A stretch of 64,000 nt of DNA, taken from NCBI GenBank assembly GCA_963669155.1, contig OZ022588.1:4316606-4380605 (forward strand), in the 5' to 3' direction. Positions 16,743-64,000 of this stretch are shown here, piece by piece (the stretch's first letter is position 1; every line of letters starts with the position of its first letter). This DNA is from Arbacia lixula. Lineage: Eukaryota; Echinodermata; Echinoidea; Arbacioida; Arbaciidae. The translations under genes were made by a program, and so were the position numbers. The notes beneath the pieces were generated by a model, which was given only the letters and a program-made list of their open reading frames with translations, was not told the DNA's origin and did not search any database.

Positions 16743-17380
16743 CCTGGTAGTAGGCAGGTGGCAGGAGTGGCTGGTGTGGTGGGTGTTGTAGGTGTGGTAG
16801 AGTGGTGATTTAAGTGGTAGGCAGGTAGTATGAGTGATAGGTGTAGTGGGTGTTGTAGTTGTGGTAGAGTGGTGAGTTAAGTGGTAGGCAGGTAGTATGA
16901 GTGGAAGGTGTGGTGGGTGTTGTAGGTGTGGTAGAGTGGTGAGTTAAGTGGTAGGCAGGTGGTAGGAGTGGTTGGTGTGGTGGGAGATGAAGGTGGGGTA
17001 ATTAAGTGGTAGGCAGTTAGTATGAGTGGTAGGTGTGGCAGAGTGGTGGGAGATGTAGGTGTGGTTGGGGTTGTGGGTGTGGTAGTTAAAGTGGTAGGCA
17101 GGACTGTGGTATATGTGGTTGAAGTTGTAGGTGTGGCAAATAGGATAAGTGGTTGGAGTGGTACATATCGTATGTATGTAGGAGTTGTATGTGAGCTTAA
17201 GTCGTAGGGCAAGAGGTAGGCAGGTGGTAACAATATGTGTTGGAAATTGTAGGTGTGATAGGATATGTGGAAGTTGTGGTGATAGAAATATTGGTACTTT
17301 TGGTTGTAGGATTGGTTAGCTGTGGTGGGAGGGTGGTAATTGGGAATAGTAAAATGGGTGGTAATAGTAGTTGTAGGAGT
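16743..17380. repeat. G/T-rich minisatellite, block 2
   Basis: Continuation of the same unit family (GTGTGGTAGAGTGGTGA, GGCAGGTAGTATGAGTGG), degenerating to the right. Confidence 0.9.
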
Positions 17381-20399: not shown

Positions 20400-20405
20400 T
20401 TTATT
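20400..20405 (-). promoter_or_regulatory. Candidate poly(A) signal of the CUB/TSP1 gene
   Basis: First canonical AATAAA (TTTATT on the plus strand) found downstream of the stop codon, about 730 bases away. Cleavage site not determinable from sequence alone. Confidence 0.35.
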
Positions 20406-21132: not shown

Positions 21133-21306
21133 TTAGGGTGGGGTTTGGACGAACTGATATGTTCCAGAGTAGCGAGGAGAGTTTGAGTCGTCGCTGTCTG
21201 TTGTGTAGACGAATTGAACCTCGTTGTCACCAGCAAAGGTCAAAGTTATAGGCGCAGCAACATCTCCCTGGCATACAGTTCGCTCCGGCGTTACATTACC
21301 AGTCAG
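21133..21306 (-). CDS. CUB11, second-half and terminal coding exon
   Basis: 57 codons plus TAA, acceptor CTCACAG. RTVCQG carries cysteine 5. The protein stops at YQFVQTPP in the last CUB strand, so the sixth cysteine and any following TSP1 or membrane segment are absent. This is a natural end of the gene, not a break: the frame is open and the CUB core is complete. Confidence 0.92.
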   Translation of the reverse strand: MTGNVTPERTVCQGDVAAPITLTFAGDNEVQFVYTTDSDDSNSPRYSGTYQFVQTPP

Positions 21307-24300
21307 CTGTGAGATACATAGAACACAAAGGCTTTAATCATCAACTCATTTTACAAACATTTATTTCAATCAACCAGGTTTCATGAAATTGCCTCAATGG
21401 TGCAATTTTGTGATTTAATCGTTGCCCTTGCTCTTTTACTTGTTCTGTCATATTTTACCATAAACGATGTCTGATGAAATGTTTCATCTACTATCGCATG
21501 AAATAAATAACCCAGGCAGACAGTAGGACAGACAACCCAAAAACAATGCCACTGACATTTTGTGGTGAGGGCATACAAAGAAAGAACAATATGACATGAT
21601 AAAAATAATTGCCACGTTGTGTGTGTATATTTGTATGTAGATGTATATGCGTGTGTACGTGTGTATGTGTGTGTACGTGTGTATGTGTGTATGTGTGTAT
21701 ATGTGTGTGTATGTGTTTGTGTTTATATTGTATAGGTTTGTGTGTGAGGGTATTTGTAGCAGTACATGTCTACATACTGCTATAAATTCAAATAAAATTG
21801 TTTTAAATGCATCCATTTTGTTTTCTACATGTTGCATTTAACTAAACCGACCCCGACTTTAAGAGGATAATTCTTACCACGACATTCTCAGTGCATGCAG
21901 CATTAAGGTCATACTCGTTGAAGACGATGACGAGAATGTAACTAGAAGGGATCTCGAAGGTGATGGAACACATGACGTTAACCGGGGTCTTGTCAGGATA
22001 GCCAGGGCTTGTGAAGGTCCCACTCCCCACATCTGTCCCACTCACAGTGTAATTGCACTCAGACTGCATCACTATGGACAAAAAGATTAATTCATGAATG
22101 GCAGGGCTTGTGAAGGTCCCACTCCCCACATCTGTCCCACTCACAGTGTAATTGCACTCAGACTGCATAACTATGGACAAAAAGATTAATTCATGAATGG
22201 CAGGGCTTGTGAAGGTCCCACTCCCCACATCTGTCTCACTCACAGTGTAATTGCACTCAGACTGCATAACTATGGACAAAAAGATTAATTCATGAATGGT
22301 TGCAGAGTGCAGAGGACAGGGTAGAGGTTGTGTATCACACTATCCCATGGAAAATCTTTTGTATCTAATAGCATATTAAATTGAATTGAATTAAAATTGA
22401 ATTAAAATTAAATTAAAAATTAAATACAAATCTCTACTGGTAAGTTGAGAAAGTGATACGATTTTCTTTAAACATCACTGGTAATACAAGGAAAACTTGC
22501 CATACTTGCAAGTTGATAGGATGAATAAAGAGGAATCAGGAAAGCAGGTCAGTCAAAGTTTAAGCATAATCTAACAAATTACAAAAAATTATGATTCTTT
22601 TTAATAACTGCAATTAGAAAAGCCTTAAAAACATTCATGGCTTCATGTGTTTAATGGTTTCTTCTGTTAGACAGAGTCACATGTAAATTGCATTGTATGT
22701 CTGCACAGTCCTTTAGGAGTCATTGTGCAGTCTTGCTTTATTTATACAAAAAATAAAAGCACACAGCATCAGCTATGCTGAACATGATTTTGGGTACCGA
22801 TAATGGTTTATATATGTTTAACTTTTATATAATTTATTTCCTTTCAATTTTCCACATGTTAGCATCTATTTGCTTGAAATCAACTTGTGCTTATTATCCA
22901 TTAACCTGAATTTGTTGCATGGCCAAACCAAGATATTCCTAAGAGTGAACATGGTAGAAAGTTAAGTTGTGATGTACAGACAACTCTGACATATTTTCCA
23001 AACTCAAGACAAGTTATTGTACAATGTAGGTCAAAGGCAGATACAATATTAATTGAAAATACACTTCCTAGGGAAGAGAGGAGTCTTGAATTGCACAAAT
23101 TTCATGCTGATTTTTCCTCTTTCAGAAAGCTTCTTTATGCACCGACTGAGCAGCTTTTTTTTAAAAAATCAATTTGCTCTGTGCTGTGTTTGCCTTTATG
23201 CTATGGGCTTCATACCTGGACACTCTATGAATGCACACTCCTCCGTAGCATTAGGGCGATCTGAGGTGCAGAACTTGTCTGATGGTGCATTGCCACCGTT
23301 AACCAGGTCCACACAGGTTACATTGCGTGTGCGAGTCGCATTCCCACAGGTGCTGGAACACTGTATCAAACCGGAAGGTGAAAAACATCAATTCAATTCA
23401 ATGATTACGACAGTGAATATTAACCATGATAGAAATATGTCGAAGCCAGAGAGATCAACAAGTATTTAGATGACTGCGAGTCATCAAAGAACATTTCCAA
23501 TTCATCCTATCAAAGTTTCACTGATATTCTCAAACCGATTCACATACTATTGGATGAACTTATTTCCAGATTGACGTGCAATCTGTTGACCACCATGTTT
23601 TTTTCCCTTCCTCTAGTCCAATAACAGACCAATAGGTGTTACATTCCATATCAATTTGAATACAAGTTATATTTAGTAATAAAGTTTTTCTGGCCAGTTG
23701 TAAAAGATGCTTGACCTTTCAATATCAGAGTAGATCAGCTTGCTGTTTATGTAACGCTGCATCAATTTCTAATCAAATGACAGAGAAATGGAAGCAACAA
23801 GCTACACACAAATGTTCACCCAAATCTTTCACAACAAAACATACCTCAGAAAAGTTGCCTGCAATGAAGTCATAGACGGGGCAATCTGGGAGCGCACACT
23901 CCTCCGTAGCATTAGGGCGATCTGAGGTGCAGAATGTGTCTGATGGTGCATTGCCTCCGTTAACCAGGTCCACACATGTTACATTGCGTGAGCGAGTTGC
24001 ATTCCCACAGGTGCTGGAACACTATTATACAGGAAGATGGAAATGAAAAATGCATAGAACTAAAACTTTTGTTTACAGATGGTGAATATTTATAAATATA
24101 AATACACCATCTATATAGAACACAATATACTTCTATGGCAGTTCTTTAAGAACCTCCATATATTTGTAGCAGGGTTTTCAGTTGATTTAAGCTAGACCTC
24201 TCATCTATCACCTCATATTTGGAAAATAGCAGCCCCTCTCCATGAAAATGTGATCTAATGTCAAATCTCATCCACATCCTTGAGCAGACCAACATATTTT

Positions 24301-27300
24301 AAGACAAAACTATTTCTACATACTATCTTAGTTCTGATGATTCCCCTCGTATAACAAATAACTGCAGTAAATCAATTTAATCTTAACACTGACTCAAGTC
24401 TTTGTGATAAACATAGTGTCTATAAATAATAACATAATACTAATAATAGTAATAATAAAACATTTATATAGTGCATAATATTAACAATCTCTATGCGCTT
24501 TACAATCATTTTAAAGAAAACGAATTACATAAGGAACACATTTTAAATGTCATATCATTGTAAACAACGTTAATATAAACAACACAAATAGACAAAAAAC
24601 TTCTTGGAGAGCATGAATGTTTTGAGAACGCGTTTGAAGTTGTCAACAGATGGGGCATTGCGTATGTGGAGGGGGATAGAGTTCCATAGTCTAGCGGCTA
24701 TGGTGCCAAAGGCACAGTCCCCATAGAAGTTAGTGTTGGTCCTTGATGTCTGGAGAAAGTTCTGGTTATCGGATCGAAGGTTACAGGTTGGGATGTATTC
24801 AAGCAGAACTTGTCAAAAAGGCCAATTACAATTCACTACTTTAATTCAATTTCAATATCATGACAATGTGAAAGCAAAAAACGCAGAGCACTCCACAAAT
24901 GTAGAGATTAAGTGGATCAGGCCCAATGACTGAAGAAAATGGATAGTGTTTTTTTAAGGTAAGAACTGCAATATACTGATAACAATACATACCTCAGAAA
25001 AGTTGCCTGCAATGAAGCCATAGACGGGGCAATCTGGGAGATCACACTCCTCCATATCACTAAGACGTGTTTCTGTGCAGAAGGAATCTGATGTCGCATT
25101 GCCTGGCACTCCATTATCCAGCTCCACACATGTTACATTGCGTGTGCGAGTCGCATTCCCACAGGTGCTGGAACACTGTATCATGCAGACAGATGAGCAA
25201 GATCAATTCGATTCATTGATTACAATAGTGAATACAACTTTGTCTGTATAGTCCAACAATTATATTATTGGCAGTAGTTTTTAAAACTTTTTCAATTACC
25301 ATATGCAAATAAACATGCTAGTCAGTGCATTTCATGAACATTAAGAATGTATTCCACTGTAGATTACATAAGGCTTTGAAATTTAATGGTCAGTCACAGC
25401 TCATATCTGTTTTTGTCAAACTAACACTAATACAATTCTTTGAACTGTCTGAATACATTTGGGATTATGCATATTAGCCTGTTGTAACAAATTTGTTCTT
25501 CTTATCTTTAAAAGTCGATGTACATGTATGCATTCATACAATTTAATTTCCTTGTTCTAGTTGTCTTAGTTATTCTTTCCTGTAACTGCAAAAACAGCTT
25601 AACTCTGGCTCACACTTATACTTGTATCAATACCCCAGTGCATGTTCAGTTCCTTAAAATGTTACTCTTACTCCACTGTCAATAACTGCACCTACTTAAC
25701 TCCATCCACTGCCAGGAAGAGCTGGGATTACTCCTGCAAGGTTCTTTGGATTGCATAATCGAGGCAAGACCATGCGGGTCTCTTTCTCTCAGTACTCACC
25801 TCAGAGAAGTTTCCATAGATGTAACCGTAGTCTGGACATGCAGATTCCAAGATGCTTAGTTGCCATGCATAGGAATCACTCGGTGGAGAGTTGTCAGAGA
25901 CAAACCTTAGGGCCACCTCACTGCTCCTGGAGAGCCATGAATACAAGAACCCGGGACCAGTTCCACAATAGGTACTTGTCAAATGGTCTGAAGAGGGTGC
26001 CAGGTCTTGCAGCTGGAAACACATGGAAGAAAAGAAATGGGAATCAACATACCCTTTCATATGTAAGATATCACAAAATTGATAATGATAGCAAAGACAT
26101 ATAATAACATTTATAAGCAAAACAGTTTGCCACTTATTGCAATTGCATGCCCTGCTAATGCAAAACACTCCTATATTTTCTGGGAGGTATTGCAATAGAT
26201 TGAAATATCTTTATAAGTGAAGAGATGCATCCCAAGATTAAAAAAAATATATCCTAGAGATAAAAGAAAAGGCACCCATCATATGCCCAAAATATATGAA
26301 AAGCTAAAAATAAGAATGAATGTGTTAAACTGCTAGAGCTACTAGACATGGATCTATTAAGAGCTGTAGTCCTGTGAAATATAATGATTTATCATAAATG
26401 AACACTTGAGTACTCATTGCATTTACACAATTCATCTCTCTTATTACCATTAGTATAAAAATGTGTTTTACACTAATGGCATTTTTATGGTCTGGTAATG
26501 TAAGGGTTATTTGTCATACAAAACATTTAGTGAAGAACATTCAACAACTAATTGACAAAACCCTTAGTGCAAGTACTTACCTCCACATAATCAGAGCATT
26601 CACCATCAACCGCTGGGGGTAGGTTGAATATTTGGAACTGGACTCTGACGCAAGAGTCACCCAGATCGATGTTGTACACACAGTCCTGGTTGGGCATGTA
26701 CGACATACCGATGGGGGCTGATTGTAGTATAGTAGTGCTGTTGATGTACTCATCGCACACTAGGAAATCAAACATTGCAGACAGTATAAGCCAAAGTGAT
26801 ATCTCATTCAGATGACTTTCAAAGACAAACTTGCAACACCATACTTCTTACCATACTTCTTTATAGAAATATCACAAACTTCCTATAACAATAGGACTGC
26901 AAGGAGAACAAAACACAACAAAAGAAGCACAACCAAAAAATAATTACTGAGTTTGAGGAAATCAGACATAACAAATCTCGTGAGGTAGTAACACCTGTCA
27001 ATTTTTCTAGTTCACAAATTACTTATTGTGAATTGTCTACTTTGCAGATGTTACACAAGGAACATGATAACTCCTGTATGTAGATTACATAACATTACAA
27101 GCATGCAATTCAGATTTAATAGTGTATAATATAGGTCCCTGTGCTATGCAAATCTCAGGATTCCAATTACACTTCAACGATGTGATTGGAAGAATTTAAC
27201 TGAGTGCAGTCAACTGGCATTTTGCCCTCCAGCGTATAAAGACAAGCATTGCCATGATCCTTCCAAAATACATTTGCTAATCCAATGACTAATACAATGC

Positions 27301-30300
27301 ATGAAGAACCTGGTGTTTAACTATGTATCAGGCTGGATTAAATTTTTTAAAATGTGTTATAAGTTTATAATAAGGCTTTAACTGTGAAATTTCAAAATCT
27401 TACCATGACCACTGCTGACCTTTCGTAAAAATCAAACAATTGTACAAGGTTTTACGACATTATCAGTTACTTTTTTAGTTATTTTGTGAATCAACAGGTA
27501 GATAGACAATACAAGAGCAAAATGCCACTGTCCCCATTGCTGTGGAGCCGTGAACAATTTCAATATGAAAAGTAAGACATAAATGATTTGACACTACGTA
27601 AATATGTCCCAAGTTTTTATCAATGTATCATAATCCGAAATCAATGTTCTGCCTTCATTATCACACAAAATATAGTTTCAAGGACCACTTCTTATGATTT
27701 GATACAAGACATTAGTCAAGGAAAGCAATTAGAACAATATAATAAAACACTGAGAAAGCAAGAATGTCTTTTTGTGCTTTTACCTGGGCATGCAAACTCA
27801 TTGCAAGGCATGGTCTCATCTGGTCTCGTGTCTGTACACAGTGAGTCATTCACAACGGTACCATTAGCCAGGACGGTACAGCTCACATTCCTCACCTGCA
27901 TACCTCCGCCACATGTCACATCACACTGTTCATAAGAAACACAAAGGCTGAGGTTATACATCAAGTTATGAATGATATACATCAGAACCAAGTTTGAGAC
28001 AGATCGGTGAAAAAGTTCTCAAGATATTGCAAAAGTGGATGTGGGGCGGTCAAACGGTTAAAAAAAAGTATGTCTAAATCAGTCTTGAATGAGCACACAT
28101 CATATATGTGAGGTCTACTTCAAAATTAAGAATCATGCTTTGGATATCACAAATGAAAGTAGGAATATTGGTACTTGTAGCAACTGTGACCTTCCACATT
28201 TGATCCTAATCATACATCAATCATGCTTCTATGAAGTACATACTGGTAGATTAATTTTAAGATATTGCATAAACGGGACAGTATGGACAGACAGATGTAC
28301 TGATGGACCGAAAAACATAAACAGACAGACGGAAAAACAGAATTCCCTCTCTAAGTGGAGGCATAAAAAGATTTCTCCACAATTTGCTACTTCACACTAT
28401 TGAAAACCCTTTCCTTTGAAACTTGCTATTTCCATGGCACAGTGCTCTATTGGCTCTGTCATTTATATGCCCAATGGAGATAAATTGTCAGGAAGATATC
28501 TTTGGGAAATCAAAATCCTCATTAGCTCCTTTAAAGAACAAAATGGGTAATTATTACAAACATACCTCAGAAAAGTTGCCTGCAATGAAGCCATAGACTG
28601 GGCATTCTGGGATATCACAGTCCTCCGTATCACTAAGACGTGTTTCTGTGCAGAGAGAATCTGATGTGGCATTGCCTGGGACTCCATTATCCAGCTCCAC
28701 ACATGTTACACTGCGAGTGCGATTCCCACTCCCACAGGTGCTGGAACACTGCATTGTGCAGGAAGGTGAACAACATTGAATTATGGTACTTCCTTTATCA
28801 AACAAGATTTATAAAACTATATTGTCAATATCCCTATGCAATGTACACTTCCATATGAATCACAATACACAGTATATGACTTCTATTGCAGTTGTACGAC
28901 AGCCTTTTCACATGAATATTTGCAGTTGCACATTACTGCATAGGTTACAGCTTACAAACCCTCCATTCCAGATCTGTCAGCTTTTGTTTCAGCCTCTATC
29001 CATGACAATGCAACTTTGTTTGCATTACTCATAAATCAATTTCTATCGCATATACAGGGAAATTGTCCAATTAGGTATTGCGTTATTTACACCTGGATAA
29101 TTTTTCACAACCACACACTTAATTTCAGTAAGAGTAAAGAATTGCCTCTACAATGCGAGAGAAGCATGCCAGGGAAATGGTAATCCATGACAGAAAGCAC
29201 GGCAAGTGGAATATGCTATGAAATATAAACTGACAATATACATAATGTATTTACACTGAGTGCAAACAGCTAAATACATGTCTGCTGGCAAGAATTTCAA
29301 ATCACAGTCCTCAAATGCTACTAGAAGTGTTGACTAATGACTGCACACACTGTACCCATTCACTGATATAGCTACCAGGAAGGGCTGAGATTACTCCTGC
29401 AAGGTTCTATGAGGTGAAAGGTACACATGCAGCTCTGTCCCTCAGTACTCACCTCAGAGAAGTTTCCATAGATGTAACCATAGTCTGGACATGCAGATTC
29501 CAAGATGCTTAGTTGCCATGCATAGGAATCACTCGGTGGAGAGTTGTCAGAGACAAACCGTAAGGACACCTCACTGCTCCTGGAGAGCCATGAATACAAG
29601 AACCCGGGACCAGTTCCACAATAGGTACCTGTCAAATGGTCTGAAGATGGTGCCAGGTCTTGCAGCTGGAATCACATGGAAGAAAGGAGAGGGAATTAAC
29701 TCCTACATGAGACAACTCCCGCTCTGTAGTACTAATAGGTCCAACAATCACTCAAAGACAGGGTAGCACTTTTATAGGTCAAAAAATAAAAATGTTTAAA
29801 AATCATGGACAATGACAGAAAACACTGCAGAAGAACTTTCTTTCCAATGAAAGAACTGGAAGCTGATTTTGAGTGGAATTGTATTGATTACAAGATTTTT
29901 AGTAGGTTTTGGACAATCATATAAAACCAAATGGTTCCTTTAGCCCATAGACTGGAGACAAAATTAGGGCATAGGTTTTTAAACTGCACAGTGATGCGTT
30001 GAGGTGAGAACTCACCACTGAGCGATACACTGAGCATTGCAATACGGTTTAAGAATGGAGACCATTGTCACCACAAAACGGCGTGTTTCAAAACATTAAC
30101 ATGGATAGTTTTTCACTTTTCATGAAAAGGCTCATGAAGCTATGACTGCGTGACTTCATACATGTTATTGTTATGGTACAGTGCTGATACCTGCTGAGTT
30201 TCATAATGTTTGCAAATAGGCTGCTGCCCTGTCTTTCAGACCTTTAGTACTGTAAAATAGCAACGCGGCTAATTCAAACAATGAAATATATAAAGTTATA

Positions 30301-38178: not shown

Positions 38179-38209
<31 letters not shown>

Positions 38210-56200: not shown

Positions 56201-59200
56201 ATAAAATGGACAATACATGAATTCAAGACCATTGGTAAGAAGATTGTTCACGATCACCCTTTTGAAGGTTTTTTGCCTTCCCAGTACAATATACTCCCTT
56301 TAAAGCTACAACATTAGTTTATCCTGGACCCAGTTCAGTACTTCCATGTACAATCTTCTGTGTAAAGGCCCACATAGAAACAAGAGCATGTAATGACTTA
56401 TGAACTTCATCTGGACAATGTAATCATAAGTGAGTTACCTCAACAGAATCAACATTCTCGCAAGGATCCTCCCCTACTCCCTCTTCTCCGAGAGCGAAGG
56501 TGCCAATGAATGTGATGCGGGCACACTGGTCGTTAGCAAGGAAAGAGTAGGTACACTCCTGGTTGTTGTCATAGGCTGCTGGAGAGTTGGGACTAGTAAA
56601 GATTCCCTCCTCTGTCAGCACTCTGTCACAGGCTATAGGGTAACAACCACACAAAGAAATGCACAGTCAGCATTAATAAATATTACTATACCCCCCCCCC
56701 CAAAAAAAAAAAAAAAAAAAAATGATAATAATAATAATAATAATAATAAATGTTATACAAATATCAATGTATTGTTAAAATCATAGGTACAAGGGGACTC
56801 TAAATCGTGCATGACCCCAGGTGTATATTTTAGAGATGACTGCTGGCCTATGATAGTGCAACTAAGGATCATGACATATTTTAGAGAGCCCCATTTACTG
56901 GTAACCATGAATAAATCAATTCTCTCTGCTTTGTACAGCCACTGAATTATGGTAAAAGGTGTAAAATGATGCAAGATAATATTGATAGATTACGAATATA
57001 TATTGAGCCTGCATCCATTCAATATGATTTCTTCCAAAGCAAATTGTCACCCTATTTTTTTTTAGAATGGCAATGGTGTGTACCAAGCATATTTGATGTG
57101 TAGTAAAAGGTCACAGCCGAAGCAGATCAAGACGTTGTGTGACAAGCTGAACTAGTGCAAAATGGCAGTCATGGCAGTTGCACATTTAATAATGTAAAAA
57201 TGTGAAACACATTTCACCACACATGGTGTTGTGCCAATAATATATTTTAAGTGCTAAACAAAGTTCTTTGCTCAAGGGCATAGTTGATTTAAATTTTCCC
57301 AACAAATCATATGGCAGGATGCTTTAAAGTTATATAAACACAAGGACTACCCATCTAAATACTCATACAGAGCCTTAAAAAGAAAGACCATTCTACTGAC
57401 TCTTTTACCACCTAAAACTGACAATTGTTTTAGATATCAACTACATTATTTTTAGATTTTTCCTTAACATGATCCTGAATTCATGATTCATGAGAATAAG
57501 ACCAATGATCTGCATAACACATTGAATCATGAATGAATGAATACAGAAGTGGTAAGTGATAGTACTGAGAACAAAGGAAAATGCATCTTCACTTAATACA
57601 TAGAAACTATAAGTGTGATGTACATGTTCATAGGCAACTGTACACTACAGTCATGTAGCACTAATAAATAAGTACTTGCATGGGCAGGAATAGAGTAAAA
57701 AGAATAACTCACATGGGCAGGGCTCTTCATTGCATGGCATAGTGGTGGGGGGTTTGACATCTTGGCATACTATGTCTGCCACGAGCTGGCCATTGGAGAA
57801 ACGTGTGCACCTAACCTCACGAATCTTGATACCTCCACCACACGTCGCGGAGCACTGACAAAACCAGAACATTAATGAACTTGTTAACCACCCACATGCA
57901 TAGGTTTATATTTTTATTCATTTATTATTATAATATACCCGGTGTATCCCCTTCACTGGTTAAACACTGTTTTAACAGAAGGCCTGGCTTTTATATGTTG
58001 ACATTTAACTCAACATGGTATACATACATACAAACAAATAACATGTACAGTTCAGTGACAACTGACATATATACATATATACATCATTATGGAATTTGTA
58101 TTATTTGAGCAAAAATGATAACAAAACTCTATCGGGTAGACCCATATATATGCATTAGGCCTATTTCATTTTGGCCCACATTGTAACTAAATAGCAGGAT
58201 TAAGTCTGTATTAAGGATTCTCATACACACAAATGTGATAAAGATCATTGTAATACATTTGTGTTTACCATATGTTCCTCATATTGACCAATATGTTCAA
58301 AATTGATAGAAAAAAAACAATACAGTGGGGTATTCAGAATCAATAATAAACAAGGAGCACATGCAACCTATTTTTAAGCATGTGGTGAATTATTAAAAAC
58401 AACTATCACAAAGTTTTCCTCACTACTCCATTTAATAGCCTGTCAGGATTTTCAGGTCAGTGACTTATACAGTACTCGTACAGCAATAAAGCGACTGGAA
58501 ACAAATGAAATAGAGAAAAGGGGAAAAGTGCTTTCTTTTTTCATGAATTGATCAAATTCACTATAATATTCCTGTTCTTTCTTTTTGTAGAAGGAAAGTC
58601 CTTTGACAAGATTCTTGCTTGATATTGGTTATGTCAAATAGTAATTATATCAAATAGTAATTAGTGTGTAATTTTCCTCCAGTAATGCACATAAATCCCA
58701 TTCAGGAACATAAAAAAATGCCACAGGCAGGGTTCCCCTGTGAAGAAAACGCGCTGTGCAAACACCACGCATCGAGTCCAGAAGGGCCATTCCACGGAAA
58801 TGTTATGCGAGTCACACGTTTCATGTCACACAATTTGCAAACAAGGGTCTAGATCAAAACTGAGAAAATATTGGAGGTGAATCCATTACTCGATCAAGTA
58901 AATCGATCATCTATACCGACATGTGACTCGTATCACACAGCATGCGTGACTAGCATGACACTTATATGGAATGGCCCAGGAAGTGACTATGAGCCACAAA
59001 TAAATTTACTGCACCATCCGTAAAATCAGTATCAGTCGTATTATTCTGATTGTTTTGGCTTTCTTTGAGCCACGCGTTCCATGAATGTGTACCATGTGTC
59101 CAGCACAGATATCTGATAAGTGACATTCTGCCAGCGTAGAAGATTTTCTGGTGACCATGCTGATCACAGGAAGGGTTGATTGATAAGTAAAACTAATAAT

Positions 59201-62200
59201 CTGCAAGGCCTGCTCCTTACCACACTGAAGGGTCCTGCAATGAAGCCAAAGTCTGGACACGCATCAAAGTTGACCAATGCTTCATATCCCCTGCCCGTGC
59301 CTTCCTCGTTTGTTTGGAAAACAAAGTCGATGTTTGAAGAGCGGGAGTAGAATACGGGAGCTGTGTCATTGACTGGTAGAGGACAGTAACGCAGGCTCAC
59401 TCCACCATCTTCATCAGTGATCTACAGAAGGAAATTAGGTTTGTGTAAGATTCAACATTGCTATTTTGATTAACAGTAACAGCAAAAATTTATATTTCCT
59501 TGTAACCTAACAAGACCAGCATTGCCAGACAATTCAGACTACGATCCCCCTAATAATGTGTGAGAGCTGTATCCCCAGAATCCTGTAATCTGTGAAGCCT
59601 CTGATTGCCACAAGTACTGTAAATGAATACATCCTCTACATATATTTGGCCAGCATATATGAAGATCATCCTTCATTAACAGTGGACATTTCATCTAAAA
59701 TATGTCCCACTGCATCTTTCTAATCTTCCCATTTAACATCATGACAGATATTCCAAGACAATGTTAGACGAGGAATATACCAGGTTATTATTTGATCTCA
59801 ACTACTTTACGGAAATGTTTCATTATTTATTGCTAACCATGCCATCAAACAACATCATAGATATGACCTTCTATGACCAGTTATACTGGCAATTACGCCA
59901 TTTAATGAAGTTTTTTCACTGAACATCTGCACTAAAACCACCAATTGTATCATCAGCTTCATTATCACCACCACCAACATTATAACCATCATCACTATCA
60001 GAAAGTGACTTTTAATGCCAAGTCAAGAATAACTATTTCTTTTTATTATGTATGTTATGTACGTGGTGAAAAGGCCTCCTTATTGTATGTCGTGTATGAC
60101 TATTGTTGAAGTTATGTGATGCAATGAATTGAAATCAATTATATTTGGAAGCCAATCAAATATGCTACAACAAACAGACAAAACTAGAGCAATTTGACTG
60201 CCATGCAGTCGATAAATATGCTTCCACCTCTTTGCTAGCTCTATTTAGATATATTCTCAGGAAGTGTGCATGCTTTGTGAGCAATGTACCATTGACCTCT
60301 GACCTTCCAGCAATTTCACCAAAAATGTCACCAGTCTACCCCCAAGTAGTGATCCATTTTCTCACTATGTTTGGTTGGAATTGCGCCATTGGATTTGGAT
60401 TTATTGTGAAAAATATTAAGCTTGTGGTAGTTTTTAGCCAATTTTGGCAAAGTTCACTGACCTTTCACCTCTGACCTTTCAGAAATTTTACCGAAAATGT
60501 CACCAGTCTATCCCAAGTAATGGTCGATCTGTGTGCCATGTTTAATGAGAATTGCTTCCTTAGATTTGGATTTATTATGAAAAAGGTAAATTTTTTACAA
60601 TTTTTCACAAAGTTCATTGACTTTGACCTCTGAACTTTCAGGATTTTTACCAAAAATGTCACGTCTAACCCCAAATAGTGATCAATCTTTGTACCATGTT
60701 TAACGAGAATTTTATCCATGGATTTGGATTTAGAGTGAAAACTGAATTTTTTTTCACTAAGTCCATCAACCTTTGAGCTGTGACATCAATCAGGTTTGGC
60801 CCCAATTTTACACTCTTCATTACTTTCATGCAATACACATTCAAGACAGACGGACGGACAGACGGACGGACAGACGGACAACCCGGCAACATAATGCCTC
60901 CAGCCACTTCGAGGCAGAGGCATAAAAACATAACTTCCATGTTTCTTACCAGGATATAATCTGGGCACTCATCATCATCATCATCATCCTCATCATCCTC
61001 ATCATCAACAGGCTCTCCCAGGTCAAATATGTCAAAGGAGACTGTGATGCACTGGTCGCTGTTGGGGTTGGAGATGGTGGTAAGGCAGTCAAGGTTATTG
61101 TAGTATTCGCCCCTCTCAAATCCAGGGCTGACCAACACTCCGGGGCTGGTCACGTTCTCGGAGCAGACTGAGGACCAGAAATACAGAAAGAGCACAATTA
61201 TAATATGATCCCAGTAAATAATTCCTGTATGATAAAAGCATCTAAACTTGACTTGAATATAATAACTTGCAATTATCAATCTTGACAGAATCATTATGAC
61301 AAAGATAATAATTTGACTGCACATAGAAATATGCCTCTGCATATTTGTTGGACAAAATTTGTTGACCTTAGATCTCTAGGTGTTACTCAACTCTATTTTT
61401 GCCAAAATTTGTGGATATATTACCTAAAATCTTGTTCCTTTAAGTAGTTAGTCTATCTTGCTTTCCAACAAATCATGTTGGTTAAACTTAGGTCGTTGAA
61501 TTGTATTCATTGTGATAAAAACTTTTTAGCTATTTGGAGGCAAAACTCACCACTTCATCTGCATGAGGTGAGCCACTGTTACATGTTTGGTTGAAGTAAT
61601 TTTTGGTTGTTTTTTTACCTATTAGCTTGAAAATGAGTGACTACTTCCCAGGATACATGAGCACAGAAATCTGTGTAATCCCCAATATGAATCAACCAAA
61701 CTGCAGACAATCAAATTACACTTTCAAAATTCCTGAACTCTCTGAGCAAATTAGTGTCAATTAGAGCTACATATCCTTGTTGGAAATTTCCTAAGATATA
61801 TAAATAATCGTTGTTTTGACCATGAAATTATATAGATACGGAGAGTTTTAAAAACAAACATAAATTGCATAACAGTGTATCTGATGTATGTTTATTCATT
61901 TAGAACAGAAAAGGAGGCGGGTTGTTTATTTTGTAAAGTAGAGTAAGACATATCGCAGTAATTCTCAGAATACGGCATGAGGGGAGTTTTCCTTTGTGAC
62001 TACATGTATATACCTGGGCACTCCTCTGTGTTGCAGGCCTCAATGGATTCGTAGATGTTGTCGTCCTCGTCACAGTCACTAGACATCTGCATGGTTGCTG
62101 GGTTTATACAAACCACATCCCTGGTCCTGTTCCCACCTCCACATGACACTGTGCACTGAGGTATGACATAGATGTACAGCATGTTAAAGGCAATGGCATG

Positions 62201-64000
62201 CTTTTTTTGGTGCATATTTTGTATATATACGGTCCACAAGGACCGTACCCAGGGAAACAGAAAGAGTGATCTTTATGGAGATATTGTCAGAAATTACAAG
62301 CGAACTACTTTGAGGGGATTCACGTTGTGTTGCCTGTACACACAGGTGGTCTTTATAGACAGATTTGATTGTACTGACAAATCACATCTGATTTGTGTTA
62401 CACAGTAAGAACACTAAGTTTACAAATACAAAGCATACTCCATGGCATTCACACACATGCAGAAACATATTGAAGATGAAGAAAAACAGGAAGGGTCAAG
62501 TCAGATATATCTACAAGCAATCTACACAGCCACAGTTGCCATTATGGAAACAAAGATTATTTATGACAATTGTCCATGAGAAACATCAATTCTATTTGCT
62601 GTGATTAACATATACCTGTTAGCACAATTAAAATAAAATACACATAATTGTCTTCATTATCTTGTGCTCTTATGTTCGTAATTGCCCCTCCGTCCCTACA
62701 TACCTCACTCCAAGGCCCAGGCCTGTACGCGGTCGTGGGGCAGGGGCCAAAGGAGGGGAACACCTCCACGCTCTTGTAACGGTTCGAGTCAAATGCACTC
62801 AGCGTGACCTCCACAGTGTCTCCAAGTGACTGGTACATCAAGGAGTTTGTCACTGGTTCGCAGAATGGCTCGTTAGCATACATGTTCCTGGGGTCAAACA
62901 GCTGTATGCAAGAGAATGATTAGGAGAAATTAGGGAATCTTGTCATAACTAATGAAATCAATACTGCATTGTCCACATCCATGGGTTTGCTTGTATTATA
63001 CGAACAAAATTATATTTCCTTTCCTTTGTTATTTGATCTTGTTTTATTTTGTCTCATTTGAAAAAATGACCTATTGAAGAATGTCTTTGATATGCTTTTT
63101 CCTCGTTCTCCCCTCTCTCCATACCCCTTTTCCTTATCTTTTCTCTGTCTGCTCCATACTCGCTCTCTATCCTTCATGTTTACTTCTTCCTTCCTCATTC
63201 TCTCCTCATTCTCTCCTCTCAACATCTTCCACTAATCCCCATCAATCCCTAGCCTCACCTGAATGTAATCCGGTTCACACCGGCCTTCCACTCCAAAGCT
63301 GATGTCGAGAGCCAAAATGAAGAGTGTGATGCAACCAGCATCATTGGTGATAGTCAGTCTGCACTCATCATTGTACAGATAAAACTCAGATTCAAATGGA
63401 AACTCAGATACTTGGTTTCCTGTTGTGATGCGAGCATTGCAGCCTGAAAAAGACACAAGGAAAAAAAAGAGCTACTGACACAAAACCATACCAGTACCAC
63501 TTTTGGCGAGGCAACATCTACCCCATCAGGATGGAGTTTGCACATCCACAGTAATGATTTGTCTTTGCATGAATCAATGACATGTCAAATTTTTGTAAGC
63601 AGAACTTTTCACGCATTTCACATCATTTCAGCACTGTTCAATTTGATGTATTTGAAATATTTGAAATACACAGGAACAAAATCAAATCAACGTTATAATG
63701 GTGAATATATAACGAGATAATGTCAATACAATATTAGCGGAAGAAGAAAACAGACATAGGGGAAGAAGAAAAATAATAACTGGAAAATAATGTAGGGAAA
63801 AATGACACAGATCTTGAGTAGAAAATGCAGACAATAAAGATATTGAAGAAAATGGGTAAAGAAAAATGAGAAGGGGGAGCAGTACAACAAAAATAGTAGC
63901 TTACCAGGGCAGGCCTCCAAAAAGCAAGGCTCAGTAGTGCGAGGTATCTCATCTGGACATTCTGATGGGTCAGTCAGTTCGAAAGTCAGTGCCGTCCTGC
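21133..64000 (-). CDS. Giant secreted CUB/TSP1 multidomain protein gene, 3' part (41 exons; 5' end off window)
   Basis: Forty-one exons, listed separately below, join in one open frame and end in TAA at 21,133-21,135. They encode 11 CUB domains and 19 TSP1 repeats (the first partial), roughly 2,410 residues. CUB first-half exons start with two bases completing a codon and end in phase 0; CUB second-half exons are phase 0-0; TSP1 exons are phase 0-1 before a CUB and 0-0 before another TSP1. Every junction obeys this rule, which strongly supports the model. CUB and TSP1 are extracellular, disulfide-bonded modules used in protein-protein and glycan binding. No protease, EGF, lectin or membrane-spanning segment is visible, so I infer a secreted matrix, coelomic-fluid or egg/embryo-coat protein. 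The family resembles no named gene I can assign. ADAMTS13 also combines TSP1 and CUB, but it has a metalloprotease and not this alternation. Confidence 0.93.
21620..21745. repeat. Imperfect GT microsatellite in the last intron
   Basis: GTGTATGT/GTGTACGT dinucleotide tract between the two CUB11 exons. Confidence 0.9.
21878..22071 (-). CDS. CUB11, first-half exon (proximal acceptor form)
   Basis: Using the acceptor GTCCATAG next to base 22,071 gives 2 + 64 codons, from VMQSECNYT to TENVV, donor GTAAGA. TSPGYPDKTP is the CUB strand-2 signature. Cysteines 1, 2 and 4 are present; the extra third cysteine is replaced (SSYILV). Two upstream in-frame acceptors exist, at 22,170 and 22,269, in a 99-bp tandem repeat and would add 33 or 66 residues. 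Confidence 0.88.
22003..22299 (-). repeat. 99-bp tandem repeat x3 carrying the CUB11 splice acceptor and exon start
   Basis: Three copies start at 22,003, 22,102 and 22,201 and differ at only a few bases. Each contains a pyrimidine tract, CATAG acceptor and the first part of the CUB11 exon. The unit is 33 codons, has no stop, and stays in frame across all copies. Confidence 0.95.
22300..23215. other. Intron between T19 and CUB11
   Basis: Contains a short TTGAAT/TTAAAT simple repeat at about 22,378-22,425. Otherwise nothing recognised. Confidence 0.5.
23216..23360 (-). CDS. TSP1 repeat T19
   Basis: Same family as T18 (VNGGNAPSDKFC) but phase 0-1, ending FIECP plus one base, then donor GTATGA. 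It hands over to the last CUB. It lacks the GNFSE tail of T18, as expected for a TSP1 exon before a CUB. Confidence 0.93.
23845..24021 (-). CDS. TSP1 repeat T18
   Basis: CSSTCGNA type, 59 codons, phase 0-0. Differs from T17 in the middle loop (VNGGNAPSDTFC) and in DFIAGNFSE. Acceptor ATAATAG, donor GTATGT. Confidence 0.94.
24430..24800. repeat. Dispersed repeat fragment in the T18/T17 intron
   Basis: An AAT-repeat, then CATTTATATAGTGCATAATA, GCGCTTTACAATCATTTTAA and a GATAGAGTTCCATAGTCTAG block. The 'tatatagcgctttacaa' layout is typical of high-copy repeats in marine invertebrates. Family not identified. Confidence 0.5.
24993..25175 (-). CDS. TSP1 repeat T17
   Basis: CSSTCGNA type: the O-fucosylation glycine is lost and an NAT sequon gained. 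61 codons, phase 0-0, ends FIAGNFSE. Acceptor GATACAG, donor GTATGT. Confidence 0.95.
25800..26012 (-). CDS. CUB10, second-half exon plus first strand of T17
   Basis: 71 codons, phase 0-0, acceptor TTTCCAG, donor GTGAGT. Same module as the CUB8/CUB9 second halves; ends YGNFSE. Confidence 0.95.
26581..26759 (-). CDS. CUB10, first-half exon
   Basis: 2 + 59 codons. Begins VCDEYINST, a little diverged from CUB8 and CUB9, then near-identical from MSYMPNQDC onward. Acceptor TTCCTAG, donor GTAAGT. Confidence 0.95.
27784..27925 (-). CDS. TSP1 repeat T16
   Basis: CDVTCGGG type, phase 0-1, donor GTAAAA. Ends EFACP plus one base. Joins CUB10. Confidence 0.95.
28566..28748 (-). CDS. TSP1 repeat T15
   Basis: CSSTCGSG type, 61 codons, phase 0-0, near copy of T13. 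Acceptor AATGCAG, donor GTATGT. Confidence 0.95.
29453..29665 (-). CDS. CUB9, second-half exon plus first strand of T15
   Basis: 71 codons, phase 0-0, acceptor ATTCCAG, donor GTGAGT. Near-identical to the CUB8 and CUB10 second halves. Cysteines 5 and 6 present; ends YGNFSE. Confidence 0.95.
30878..31056 (-). CDS. CUB9, first-half exon
   Basis: 2 + 59 codons. Differs from CUB8 in the first residues (CGEY for CSEY). Cysteines 1-4 present, including the extra DSCV. Acceptor TTCCTAG, donor GTAAAT. Confidence 0.95.
31725..31866 (-). CDS. TSP1 repeat T14
   Basis: CDVTCGGG type, phase 0-1, donor GTAAAA. Sequons NVS, NGT, NDS and NNT. Near copy of T12 and T16. Confidence 0.95.
32668..32850 (-). CDS. 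TSP1 repeat T13
   Basis: CSSTCGSG type with an intact O-fucosylation motif, 61 codons, phase 0-0. Ends FIAGNFSE. Near copy of T15. Donor GTATGT. Confidence 0.95.
33790..34002 (-). CDS. CUB8, second-half exon plus first strand of T13
   Basis: 71 codons, phase 0-0, acceptor TTTCCAG, donor GTGAGT. GTYCGTGP carries cysteine 5 and SACPDY cysteine 6. Ends YGNFSE. The flanking intron on the 3' side matches that of CUB10 better than that of CUB9. Confidence 0.95.
34811..34989 (-). CDS. CUB8, first-half exon
   Basis: 2 + 59 codons. Cysteines CSEY, QDCV, DSCV and GECSDY. Near-identical to CUB9 and CUB10 first halves. Acceptor TTCCTAG, donor GTAAAT. Confidence 0.95.
34990..36275. other. Intron between T12 and CUB8
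   Basis: 1.3 kb of AT-rich sequence; nothing recognised. Confidence 0.5.
36276..36417 (-). CDS. TSP1 repeat T12
   Basis: CDVTCGGG type, phase 0-1, ends EVTCP plus one base, donor GTAAAA. Sequons NVS, NGT and NDS. Near copy of T14 and T16. It closes the run of five TSP1 repeats and joins CUB8. Confidence 0.93.
37751..37933 (-). CDS. TSP1 repeat T11 (tandem copy, diverged C-terminus)
   Basis: Same as T9 up to the sixth cysteine, but the linker strand reads FIVDSVSE instead of FIAGNFSE. The NFS sequon and the aromatic residue at the second tryptophan position of the next repeat are therefore lost. 61 codons, phase 0-0, donor GTATAT. Confidence 0.93.
38156..38210. repeat. AT/AG microsatellite
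   Basis: AT dinucleotides followed by AG dinucleotides. A shorter version occurs in the next copy at about 39,203-39,247. Confidence 0.95.
38254..38570. mobile_element. Insertion in the second copy of the TSP1 triplication
   Basis: About 320 bases present only in this copy of the triplicated intron. It contains GATTGGTC, two TGCGCATGCTC motifs (38,370 and 38,409) and an imperfect inverted pair around GCTCGCAG...CTGCGAGC. It may be a short non-autonomous element; no coding capacity. Confidence 0.5.
38801..38983 (-). CDS. TSP1 repeat T10 (tandem copy)
   Basis: Near-identical to T9, with one clear change (RSVTC for RNVTC) that removes a sequon. 61 codons, phase 0-0, donor GTATGT. Confidence 0.95.
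39563..39745 (-). CDS. TSP1 repeat T9 (tandem copy)
   Basis: 61 codons, phase 0-0, CSSTCGNA type. The repeat has five N-glycosylation sequons (NAT, NVT, NAT, NDT, NFS). It is one of three near-identical copies (T9-T11) that also share intron sequence on both sides. Donor GTATGT. Confidence 0.95.
39746..40606. other. Intron between T8 and T9
   Basis: The first part belongs to the triplicated unit. The rest is AT-rich with a C homopolymer at about 40,481-40,499. The last 40 bases before the T8 donor resemble the intron beside the CUB8/CUB10 second-half exons. Confidence 0.55.
40607..40780 (-). CDS. TSP1 repeat T8, chimeric exon
   Basis: Begins like the CDVTCG-type exons (T12, T14, T16). Unlike them it does not stop after the last cysteine but runs on through RYRYVSGNFSE in phase 0. 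Its 3' end and the adjoining intron closely resemble the 3' end of the CUB8 and CUB10 second-half exons, so it looks like a recombinant exon. It starts a run of five TSP1 repeats without a CUB between them. Confidence 0.92.
41469..41654 (-). CDS. CUB7, second-half exon plus first strand of T8
   Basis: 62 codons, phase 0-0, acceptor TATCTAG, donor GTGAGT. VRVCGN carries cysteine 5 and TVPCSQ cysteine 6; the RITFSSG strand is typical. Ends PGPYGE. Confidence 0.92.
42201..42379 (-). CDS. CUB7, first-half exon
   Basis: 2 + 59 codons. SPGYPAPAP is the CUB strand-2 signature. Cysteines CNQF, STCV, GLCW and RECR. No aspartate follows cysteine 4 (CRRGGLL). Acceptor CTCCTAG, donor GTGAGT. Confidence 0.9.
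42820..43700 (+). mobile_element. LINE 3' fragment, CR1/Jockey-like reverse transcriptase C-terminus
   Basis: An open frame from 42,844 to 43,326 reads YNSFIHSRISYCNIEWANC, LQKRAVRLCTG, HTDPLF.RLK..KI.DI and GPDIWNVLPSHIR.C...ISFKEF. This is the conserved C-terminal domain of CR1/L2/Jockey-type LINE reverse transcriptases. The frame starts just after an in-frame stop, so the element is 5'-truncated; the catalytic RT and endonuclease parts are missing. It ends in an A-rich tail near 43,690. It lies antisense in the intron between CUB7 and T7. Confidence 0.85.
43948..44098 (-). CDS. TSP1 repeat T7
   Basis: Begins CSVSCGWG and ends AGDCPL plus one base (151 bp, longest phase 0-1 TSP1 exon here). 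Six cysteines; O-fucosylation motif intact. Acceptor ACACCAG, donor GTAAGC. The following intron contains a LINE fragment. Confidence 0.9.
44814..45023 (-). CDS. CUB6, second-half exon plus first strand of T7
   Basis: 70 codons, phase 0-0. QTFCGS carries cysteine 5 and FSACER cysteine 6. Ends TTPFGE. The donor GTTTGC departs from the GTAAGT/GTGAGT/GTATGT used elsewhere, but reading frame and phase support it. Confidence 0.9.
45573..45766 (-). CDS. CUB6, first-half exon
   Basis: 2 + 64 codons. PPNYPDEYEND is an excellent CUB strand-2 signature. Cysteines CLEY, KVCQ, GMCV and AGCL. Acceptor TATGCAG, donor GTGAGT. Confidence 0.94.
46281..46425 (-). CDS. TSP1 repeat T6
   Basis: Begins CSATCGLG, is basic (VRRRKVEC), has six cysteines and ends EGECP plus one base. 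Acceptor CACACAG, donor GTATGT. Confidence 0.92.
46540..46876. repeat. 123-bp tandem duplication inside a dispersed repeat
   Basis: Two copies start at 46,628 and 46,751 (ACATAA.AATTACAATGAATA ... GAGAGTTATTCTT), differing at a few bases. The left flank and unit resemble the 5.68-5.98 kb element (CAAATAAAACA..., GTTGTG.AT.TGGG). Confidence 0.85.
47745..47936 (-). CDS. CUB5, second-half exon plus first strand of T6
   Basis: 64 codons, phase 0-0, acceptor TCCTCAG, donor GTAAGT. IELCSV carries cysteine 5 and FVECPRF cysteine 6. Ends LDEFGA. Confidence 0.91.
48662..48831 (-). CDS. CUB5, first-half exon
   Basis: 2 + 56 codons, the shortest first-half exon here. Cysteines CYEE, YDCV, DLCV and DTCD. 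Acceptor GGAACAG, donor GTAAGT. The reading frame is confirmed by the T5 phase-1 donor (completed codon Pro). Confidence 0.9.
48832..50333. other. Intron between T5 and CUB5
   Basis: G homopolymer near 48,918, A homopolymer near 50,143, and a perfect 12-base hairpin at 49,703-49,727. No gene-like content. Confidence 0.5.
50334..50478 (-). CDS. TSP1 repeat T5
   Basis: Begins CSETCGEG and ends EEECE plus one base (phase 1). Six cysteines and an intact O-fucosylation motif. The acceptor is a purine-rich CCAAAAAG, weaker than its neighbours. The frame and phase fit the model. Confidence 0.9.
50479..52865. other. Intron between CUB4 and T5 (2.4 kb)
   Basis: Mostly unremarkable. A fragment at about 52,103-52,190 shares GCATCATGCATTATTAATG and GGTGTGATACACAATGGTCA with the 17.8/19.6-kb MITE family, with the first part inverted. 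Confidence 0.45.
52866..53066 (-). CDS. CUB4, second-half exon plus first strand of T5
   Basis: 67 codons, phase 0-0. QQFCGES holds cysteine 5 and FTECPEY cysteine 6; GSFQFLVQF is the last strand. Ends VDDFGP, then donor GTAAGT. Acceptor TCTGTAG. Confidence 0.92.
53927..54111 (-). CDS. CUB4, first-half exon
   Basis: 2 + 61 codons with cysteines CYEE, VDCI, GDCL and GACL. The aspartate that normally follows cysteine 4 in calcium-binding CUBs is not seen (CLGQSLT). Acceptor CGGGCAG, donor GTGAGT. Confidence 0.91.
54525..54666 (-). CDS. TSP1 repeat T4
   Basis: Begins CDVTCGSG and ends NDPCP plus one base (phase 1). It has six cysteines and an intact O-fucosylation motif. Acceptor ATGGCAG, donor GTAAGT. 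Confidence 0.93.
55355..55549 (-). CDS. CUB3, second-half exon plus first strand of T4
   Basis: 65 codons, phase 0-0, acceptor CTTGCAG, donor GTGAGA. VTYCGNT carries cysteine 5 and IVECPQY cysteine 6; GFTAYF is the classic last CUB strand. Ends VGDFSQ. Confidence 0.93.
55931..56303. mobile_element. TTAA-flanked palindromic element, 373 bp
   Basis: Ends are TTAA then AGGGAGTATATTGTACTG and the exact complement before the right TTAA. Arms of about 160 bases match almost throughout (for example GCTGAAAGTTATTTGCCCTC and its complement). Lies in the intron between CUB3 halves. Confidence 0.9.
56439..56632 (-). CDS. CUB3, first-half exon
   Basis: 2 + 64 codons, acceptor CCTATAG, donor GTAACT. Cysteines in CDRV, QECT, DQCA and DPCE. 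SPNSPAAYDNN matches the 'sPnyP..Y..n' signature of CUB strand 2. Confidence 0.93.
57713..57854 (-). CDS. TSP1 repeat T3
   Basis: Begins CSATCGGG with an intact O-fucosylation motif. It has six cysteines and ends EEPCP plus T (phase 1), with donor GTGAGT. The frame continues into CUB3. Confidence 0.92.
57855..59220. other. Intron between CUB2 and T3
   Basis: Contains the GGGCCATTCCA palindromic element at 58,784-58,977; nothing else recognised. Confidence 0.5.
58784..58977. mobile_element. MITE-like element with GGGCCATTCCA ends, 194 bp
   Basis: The left end GGGCCATTCCACGGAAATGT (then ATGCGAGTCAC) is an imperfect inverted match to the right end GTGACTAGCAT...ATATGGAATGGCCC. Confidence 0.75.
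59221..59421 (-). CDS. CUB2, second-half exon plus first strand of T3
   Basis: 67 codons, phase 0-0, acceptor TCTGTAG, donor GTAAGG. Contains RYCPLP and DACPDF (cysteines 5 and 6) and ends AGPFSV. The TSP1 tryptophan is replaced by Phe. Confidence 0.91.
60270..60930. repeat. Dispersed repeat with three internal direct subrepeats and GACGGACA tail
   Basis: Three diverged units near 60,290, 60,470 and 60,630 share TGACCTCTGA.CTT.CAG, TTTTACC.AAAATGTCAC and GATTTGGATTTA. The block ends in a GACGGACG/GACGGACA tetranucleotide tract (60,850-60,880), then GGCAACATAATGCCTCCAGC...GGCAGAGGCATAA. Related ends occur at 43.71 and 53.39 kb. Confidence 0.75.
60950..61167 (-). CDS. CUB2, first-half exon with acidic insertion
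   Basis: 2 + 72 codons, longer than its sister exons because of an Asp/Glu run (VDDEDDEDDDDDDEC) just before cysteine 4. The run is encoded by a near-perfect ATC/GAT trinucleotide repeat at about 60,970-61,009. Cysteines: CSEN, LDCL, DQCI, DECPDY. The donor GTAAGA follows DYIL. Confidence 0.92.
61168..62013. other. Intron between T2 and CUB2
   Basis: The stretch at about 61,320-61,480 resembles the 60.3-kb dispersed repeat (GACAAAATTTGTTGACCTT). Otherwise nothing recognised. Confidence 0.4.
62014..62155 (-). CDS. TSP1 repeat T2
   Basis: Begins CTVSCGGG and ends in NTEECP plus one base (phase 1). All six TSP1 cysteines are present. The O-fucosylation consensus C-x-x-S/T-C-x-x-G is intact. 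Donor GTATAT. Confidence 0.93.
62704..62901 (-). CDS. CUB1, second-half exon plus first strand of T2
   Basis: Acceptor CATACAG, 66 codons, donor GTATGT. It holds cysteines 5 and 6 (PFCE, GPCP) and ends in RPGPWSE. That is the only tryptophan in the whole window at the TSP1 W-x-x-W position. Phase 0-0. Confidence 0.92.
63259..63443 (-). CDS. CUB1, first-half exon
   Basis: Acceptor TTTTTCAG, then 2 + 61 codons, then donor GTGAGG. It carries cysteines 1-4 of the CUB (CNAR, DECR, AGCI, GRCEPD). AGCI is the extra cysteine seen in most CUBs of this protein. The strand pattern CITLFILALDISF is typical of CUB. Confidence 0.92.
63905..64000 (-). CDS. TSP1 repeat T1, partial exon
   Basis: This exon is cut by the right edge of the window. 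The visible part gives the C-terminal half of a TSP1 repeat: cysteines in SECPDE, EPCF and EACP, then a donor GTAAGC after CCTG (phase 1). It joins CUB1. The first three cysteines of the repeat lie outside the window. Confidence 0.85.

Follow-up and report, generated by a model that had tools for sequence, protein, structure and literature searches.

A probable EBR1-type ADAMTS gene with a long TSP1/CUB tail in the sea urchin Arbacia lixula

Results

The window, by which we mean the whole 64,000-base stretch of DNA analyzed here, lies at positions 4316606-4380605 of contig 13 in the Arbacia lixula genome (606,990,701 bases, 590 contigs). Series of TSP1 and CUB exons were visible in its minus-strand stop-to-stop frames. 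We applied a chain finder that matches exon phases, weighs splice sites generically, and scores codons with a model trained on confident exons; its raw minus-strand output held 43 exons. Upon reading the DNA, we removed two of these (22269-22229 and 22162-22130) as pieces of a 99-bp tandem repeat and let the first CUB11 exon begin at an in-phase acceptor at 22071, leaving a single exon of 194 bases. The final model runs on the minus strand from 64000 to 21133 and consists of 41 exons encoding 2,410 residues, joined by 40 GT-AG introns of 357-2,387 bases with agreeing phases; its one stop codon stands at the end of the chain, and an AATAAA is found at 20405, ~730 bases past this stop.

This gene model is real and well supported. 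Phase agreement at 40/40 junctions of the final model is enforced by the finder; when this rule was lifted, the chain had 43 exons, with 37 of the 41 model exons recovered identically and phase-compatible junctions in 38 of 42 cases, compared with about one third expected by chance. The best minus-strand chains scored 1139.5 (phase-free) and 1135.7 (phase-enforced), against 20.7 for the plus strand and 24.3 for the reversed sequence. Finders trained on one half of the exons exactly recovered 17/20 and 18/21 exons of the other half. An initial annotation of this DNA had described an extracellular repeat protein with at least 11 CUB and 19 TSP1 domains in one frame, a consistent chain of 41 exons, and seven TSP1-CUB repeats followed by multi-TSP1 blocks. 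Our model has the same domain counts, the same end point at 21133, and the same layout, and its domains are those of secreted proteins.

The window part of the gene comprises 11 CUB domains, each encoded by two exons, and 19 TSP1 domains, the first of which is truncated at the window edge. Across exons 1 to 21, a single TSP1 alternates with a single CUB seven times; five TSP1, a CUB, two TSP1, a CUB, two TSP1, a CUB, three TSP1, and a final CUB follow. Two classes of TSP1 exon can be distinguished. Linking-type exons (174-183 bases) run from phase 0 to phase 0 and also encode the beginning of the following TSP1, and end-type exons (142-151 bases) lead into a CUB. Together with its two CUB exons, an end-type exon forms a unit that is also in phase 0 at both ends, so that duplication of either this unit or the linking exon would leave the reading frame intact.

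All exons are on the minus strand and were placed by the chain model, with the domain evidence given here for each. Exon 1 (63905-64000) encodes the C-terminal part of the TSP1 cut by the window edge and ends in CFLEACP. It is followed by CUB1 in exons 2 (63259-63443) and 3 (62704-62901), the latter also holding the start of the next TSP1. TSP1 domains recognized by Pfam occupy exons 4 (62014-62155), 7 (57713-57854), 10 (54525-54666), 13 (50334-50478), 16 (46281-46425), and 19 (43948-44098). Between them lie CUB2 in exons 5 (60950-61167) and 6 (59221-59421), CUB3 in exons 8 (56439-56632) and 9 (55355-55549), CUB4 in exons 11 (53927-54111) and 12 (52866-53066), CUB5 in exons 14 (48662-48831) and 15 (47745-47936, with a coding score of 1.3, the lowest of the 41), and CUB6 in exons 17 (45573-45766) and 18 (44814-45023), and this half closes with CUB7 in exons 20 (42201-42379) and 21 (41469-41654). 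Pfam recognized CUB2 (25.0 bits), CUB3 (49.2 bits), CUB6 (40.5 bits), and CUB7 (30.2 bits), while CUB1, CUB4, and CUB5 were identified with an HMM built from the gene's other CUBs (38.1, 45.6, and 35.0 bits, leave-one-out). CUB2 contains an acidic run, DDEDDEDDDDDDE, within exon 5, and a 123-bp unit occurs twice in tandem, with 96% matches, in one intron of the gene (46628-46877).

The C-terminal half begins with a linking-type TSP1 exon, exon 22 (40607-40780, phase 0 to 0), followed by the TSP1 exons 23 (39563-39745), 24 (38801-38983), 25 (37751-37933), and 26 (36276-36417), all recognized by Pfam. CUB8 (exons 27, 34811-34989, and 28, 33790-34002; Pfam 45.1 bits) leads to TSP1 exons 29 (32668-32850) and 30 (31725-31866), again found by Pfam, and CUB9 (exons 31, 30878-31056, and 32, 29453-29665; Pfam 43.6 bits) to TSP1 exons 33 (28566-28748) and 34 (27784-27925). 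CUB10 spans exons 35 (26581-26759) and 36 (25800-26012) and was identified by the gene-derived HMM at 159.7 bits (leave-one-out). TSP1 exons 37 (24993-25175), 38 (23845-24021), and 39 (23216-23360) come next; along with exons 33 and 34, these share 77-99% DNA identity with exons covered by the Pfam scan. CUB11 (Pfam 23.7 bits), whose exons were set by reading the DNA, occupies exon 40 (21878-22071) and the terminal exon 41 (21133-21306), which includes the stop codon; the chain ends with this domain and has no further tail. The beginning of the first CUB11 exon is repeated in tandem as three 99-bp copies at 22003-22299, two of them 5' of the exon. As each copy has its own in-phase acceptor, alternative or extended use of this exon is possible.

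To assess these domain assignments, we combined Pfam with HMMs built from the gene itself. Scanned singly, 7 of 10 CUBs (all except CUB10 were covered) exceeded the Pfam cut-off, namely CUB2, 3, 6, 7, 8, 9, and 11, and the single CUB1, CUB4, and CUB5 gave no match. The HMM from the gene's other CUBs recognized 11/11 at 20.4-166.7 bits, compared with 4.6-9.9 bits for the best of 200 shuffles of each; CUB1, CUB4, and CUB5 were kept out of all training of this HMM. The CUBs have diverged from one another, with an identity to CUB2 of 15-35% for the other eight in an alignment of nine. For TSP1, two long pieces spanning exons 1-30 contained 4 and 9 stretches of the Pfam family TSP1_ADAMTS. By eye, most of the TSP1 domains have tyrosine or phenylalanine in place of the first tryptophan of the usual motif, and WxxW is absent from all 2,410 residues of the window part. 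This part has a computed mass of 262 kDa and a pI of 4.05, with 68 N-glycosylation sequons and 18 CxxS/TCG O-fucosylation motifs; a stretch of 19 residues within CUB11 has a mean hydropathy of 1.84.

We then followed the gene 5' for another 80 kb, counting coordinates on past 64000. The first 5,000 bases (64001-69000), between the window and the last upstream exon, are N. At 5.5-27 kb 5' of the window, the minus strand encodes a reprolysin propeptide (90.3-90.6 kb), a zinc-protease exon (~83.5 kb), an ADAMTS cysteine-rich domain, and ten TSP1 domains (~70.7-80.2 kb, ten TSP1_ADAMTS stretches in Pfam). The zinc site, HEMGHSLGMYHDD, has an intact HExxHxxGxxHD. Pfam scored the propeptide at 34.3 bits, Reprolysin at 49.1 bits, and ADAMTS_CR_2 at 60.6 bits, and a genome-wide Reprolysin search, which is independent of the gene model, included this protease exon among its 7 matches. 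Among solved structures, the protease and cysteine-rich part best matched ADAMTS13 (85.1 bits), followed by ADAMTS-5 (81 bits). The Reprolysin match is limited to profile positions 105-196 of 200 and leaves the first catalytic half unmatched; a pattern search for the first catalytic exon gave no match. Exons modeled 5' of the propeptide were not credible. A first-half frame at 69979-70134, with 26.8 bits in the gene-derived HMM, probably belongs to a twelfth CUB, although the piece modeled there scores 13.8 bits in Pfam, under the cut-off of 21.4. Since propeptide, protease exon, cysteine-rich domain, and TSP1 domains all stand 5' on the same strand, and the TSP1 domains are themselves of the ADAMTS type where scanned, the most likely reading of the protein is an ADAMTS that carries at least 11 CUBs and ~29 TSP1. 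The 2,410 residues from the window and ~1,106 from upstream give ~3,516 modeled residues; the gene's 5' end, its first catalytic exon, and any sequence in the N stretch would come on top of this figure.

Since 5,000 N separate head and tail, a protease gene adjacent to one or more CUB/TSP1 genes could mimic a single gene. This arrangement seems very improbable. Across 144 kb, three HMMs trained on exons of this same gene returned 31 TSP1, 15 CUB-first-half, and 15 CUB-second-half rows, all on the minus strand and none on the plus strand; junction phases agree at all 40 junctions with enforcement and at 38 of 42 without, and there is a single, terminal stop. Moreover, the first exon in the window is a cut TSP1, the beginning of which has to fall in the N stretch. 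The repeats by themselves also match other kinds of protein: a TSP1 pair hit chains of thrombospondin-1 and of properdin (10 distinct sequences at E ≤ 0.01, best 7.8 × 10−6), and a single CUB used as query hit cubilin, PCPE-1, and neuropilin. These matches would suit a complement-like protein or one for humoral recognition, and also a lineage-specific matrix protein whose role is not known. However, TSP1_ADAMTS (PF19030) outscored TSP_1 (PF00090) in Pfam scans of the three long pieces, an ADAMTS head lies 5', and we know of no complement protein with an ADAMTS-type head; we give a humoral, complement-like, or lineage-specific matrix protein almost no chance.

An Rfam search returned 0 matches, NCBIfam returned one match that was far under its cut-off, and Pfam gave none above cut-off in ten window frames outside the gene (eight at 1-19 kb, one at 42.8 kb, and one at 55.7 kb). 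By eye, an open frame on the plus strand at 42826-43323 resembles the end of a LINE reverse transcriptase, with no Pfam family assigned. A minus-strand frame at 2396-2650 has a signal-peptide-like start, MKCGVFLLAVCCLMAMSSNADPSD, and no Pfam match, and could be the opening exon of a gene for a small secreted protein. At 15139-17083 there are arrays of a GTGGTAGAGTGGTGGGGTAA-like unit, whose periods (29, 58, 67, and 134 bases) are nested.

Next, we compared the repeats of the C-terminal half. Within 23216-39888, identity between several of the repeat exons far exceeds that between their introns. Exon pairs 23/24, 27/31, and 29/33 share 99% identity, 28/36 and 32/36 share 97%, and 28/32 shares 96%, with a synonymous divergence of 0.02-0.11 over these six pairs. 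Pooled pN/pS was 0.31-0.33 for CUB exons and 0.59-0.65 for TSP1 exons; the highest value for a single pair, 1.51 in exons 28/36, reflects five changes beside a single synonymous one. In end-to-end comparisons, 8 of 13 intron pairs showed 48-56% identity, against 44-47% for unrelated pairs (n = 4), and five showed 65-86% (31/35, 23/25, 30/34, 28/32, and 23/24). This measure understates some pairs: the introns after exons 24 and 25 gave 56% end to end, and BLAST around the same exons aligned 730 columns at 90% identity. Around exons 29/33, BLAST aligned 941 columns at 73%. In the 13 flank profiles used (exons 38/39 were left out), identity dropped to noise level no more than 150 bases from the exon in 10, and it extended to 200 bases or more in three (29/33, 23/24, and 24/25).

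To determine how surprising this contrast is, we calculated the probability of so few synonymous changes had the exons diverged as far as the introns. At an intron-like divergence of 45-50%, it was 1 × 10−9 to 1 × 10−12 for pairs 27/31, 28/36, 29/33, and 32/36, and at half that divergence it was 2 × 10−4, 3 × 10−5, 1 × 10−3, and 3 × 10−3, respectively. The similarity was not clearly improbable for 28/32 (3 × 10−3, or 0.32 when halved) and 23/24 (0.014, or 0.20 when halved). Exons that are 96-99% identical beside introns of which many can barely be aligned suggest exon-limited homogenization. Such a contrast might also arise from constraint on synonymous changes or from insertions that turn over the introns. 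Our best reading is that conversion tracts around exons have acted in part of the array and that exons 23-25 arose by ordinary recent tandem duplication.

Finally, we asked which known protein this gene resembles. The founding paper on EBR1 (egg bindin receptor 1), the receptor on sea urchin eggs for sperm bindin, is reportedly that of Kamei and Glabe in 2003. EBR1 is described as an ADAMTS-family protein of ~350 kDa with repeated CUB domains and TSP1 repeats (PMC9265791), as including an ADAMTS domain (PMC6353882), and, under the name Ebr1, as having multiple CUBs contiguous with a TSP domain and HYR repeats and no predicted transmembrane domains (PMC8403831). Ebr1 mRNA is reported as abundant in eggs of Strongylocentrotus intermedius (PMC9202947). 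We assign a probability of roughly 0.75 to the reading that about the C-terminal two thirds of a sea urchin gene for a secreted ADAMTS of the EBR1 type, with a giant TSP1/CUB tail, lie in the window. This filing is by architecture, as we compared EBR1 through its published descriptions rather than by sequence. The initial annotation had seen only CUB and TSP1 domains and knew of no named protein with this alternation. Reading past 64000 added the ADAMTS head and ten further TSP1 on the same strand, and the repeated CUB and TSP1 domains are those of the published descriptions (PMC9265791, PMC8403831). The domain architecture as such is therefore not new, being that of the known EBR1, and we rejected the idea of an unknown architecture. 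Of the three roles that the annotation had guessed at (a lineage-specific matrix, egg-coat, or humoral recognition protein), an egg-coat protein fits best, and judging from its architecture the gene most likely represents another example of a known egg-coat protein rather than an unknown kind. The literature passages on EBR1 or related terms that we drew upon contain no description of an Arbacia EBR1, and Arbacia lixula is probably a new species for a gene of this type.

One described feature was not found here, the hyalin (HYR) repeats that one paper ascribes to Ebr1. An HMM built from two HYR frames of the same genome, which finds 10 frames in its two source loci (the two training frames included), gave 0 matches at E ≤ 1 in frames of at least 25 residues across the 144 kb, the 5,000 N included, and Pfam found no HYR on exons 1-30, CUB9, CUB11, or the scanned 5' pieces. 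Because HYR repeats are named in one description and missing from that in PMC9265791, we did not take them as defining EBR1. The lack of matches in the 144 kb would also suit a matrix-remodeling ADAMTS that is not a bindin receptor, in which the protease is the working part and the TSP1/CUB tail only docks it in a matrix. An intact zinc site and a best solved match to ADAMTS13, itself a carrier of CUBs (PMC8051872), point the same way.

We also searched the genome for related genes. A CUB query gave 6 matches, all of them CUB8-10 of the present gene; it missed the gene's own CUB1-7 and CUB11, so a diverged second gene could not have shown, and a diverged EBR1 elsewhere is possible. The genome is rich in CUB exons (558 candidates, with none from the window among the 150 listed). 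A TSP1 query gave 25 matches, of which 17 fall within the gene or its 5' part and the other 8, at other loci, show 31-53% identity. Against a matrix-remodeling role, the best of these outside matches, on contig 18, had no CUB in the 10 kb read there, the one outside locus covered by our reading, and an ADAMTS protein with repeated CUB and TSP1 domains is how the published accounts portray EBR1. We consider a matrix-remodeling ADAMTS unlikely and favor the EBR1-type gene.

Bindin is known from echinoderms. A search for the bindin family matched 2/2 candidates, with a best E value of 2.2 × 10−65; both lie on the minus strand of contig 14, ~9 kb apart (4921897-4931782), and probably belong as two exons to a single bindin gene, short and glycine-rich. 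By eye, their sequence resembles sea urchin bindin. Three published bindin primers of the sea star Patiria miniata aligned to the surrounding 20 kb with 6-9 mismatches, compared with 7-10 for shuffled primers, and thus do not match the locus. None of the 14 control genomes of our family searches had a bindin match (0/14), though CUB and Reprolysin were absent from them too, so this count says nothing about animals.

Discussion

If the gene is of the EBR1 type, the protease exons and the CUB/TSP1 exons would be joined in one transcript across the 5,000-base N stretch, and the protein, as expected from its family, would be made by the oocyte and placed in the vitelline layer. Its tail may form a long, glycosylated, and very acidic rod. 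Such a rod could present many similar CUB and TSP1 surfaces to sperm bindin and thereby allow multivalent adhesion, again by analogy with the family. The C-terminal repeats would turn over through duplication of units and probably homogenization, a possible origin of differences between species.

EBR1 and bindin are described as being among the few known pairs for recognition between egg and sperm, with a disputed role as speciation genes (PMC10451471). A published selection study concerns the strongylocentrotids (PMC5521101), and Arbacia lixula is a sea urchin probably outside that group. An EBR1-type locus with its introns and a bindin locus in one genome would permit tests of coevolution and of repeat homogenization. 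The part that we consider worth following is the homogenization limited to exons. We tentatively propose, as a possibility that we ourselves regard as doubtful, that the tail undergoes exon-limited concerted evolution beside a protease head with an intact zinc site. Conversion tracts would be confined to an exon and at most ~150 bases of flank and would hold units at 96-99% identity while introns drift, and a change in one unit would spread through the array. If true, the spread of such a single-unit change could alter the whole surface of the receptor.

Several known proteins share parts of this design. CSMD proteins are likewise giant and extracellular, with CUBs alternating with another small module; they differ from the present gene in that this module is sushi and that they have no protease head. 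ADAMTS13 resembles it in its ADAMTS head, TSP1 repeats, and CUB domains, though ADAMTS13 has a tandem CUB1 and CUB2 (PMC8051872), whereas here 11 CUBs and a probable twelfth are dispersed among TSP1 domains. VERL, the abalone egg receptor for sperm lysin, is also an egg-coat receptor of many repeats, described as 22 repeats of 153 residues (PMC9265791); it is a mollusc protein with ZP-type repeats (PMC8830517) and has no domains in common with the present gene. EBR1 is the closest in design. Its ~350 kDa stand beside 262 kDa for 2,410 of ~3,516 modeled residues in a still incomplete gene model. The likeness lies in an ADAMTS domain at the same locus, with 5,000 N between head and tail, in repeated CUB and TSP1 domains, in large size, and in an echinoderm genome that carries bindin.
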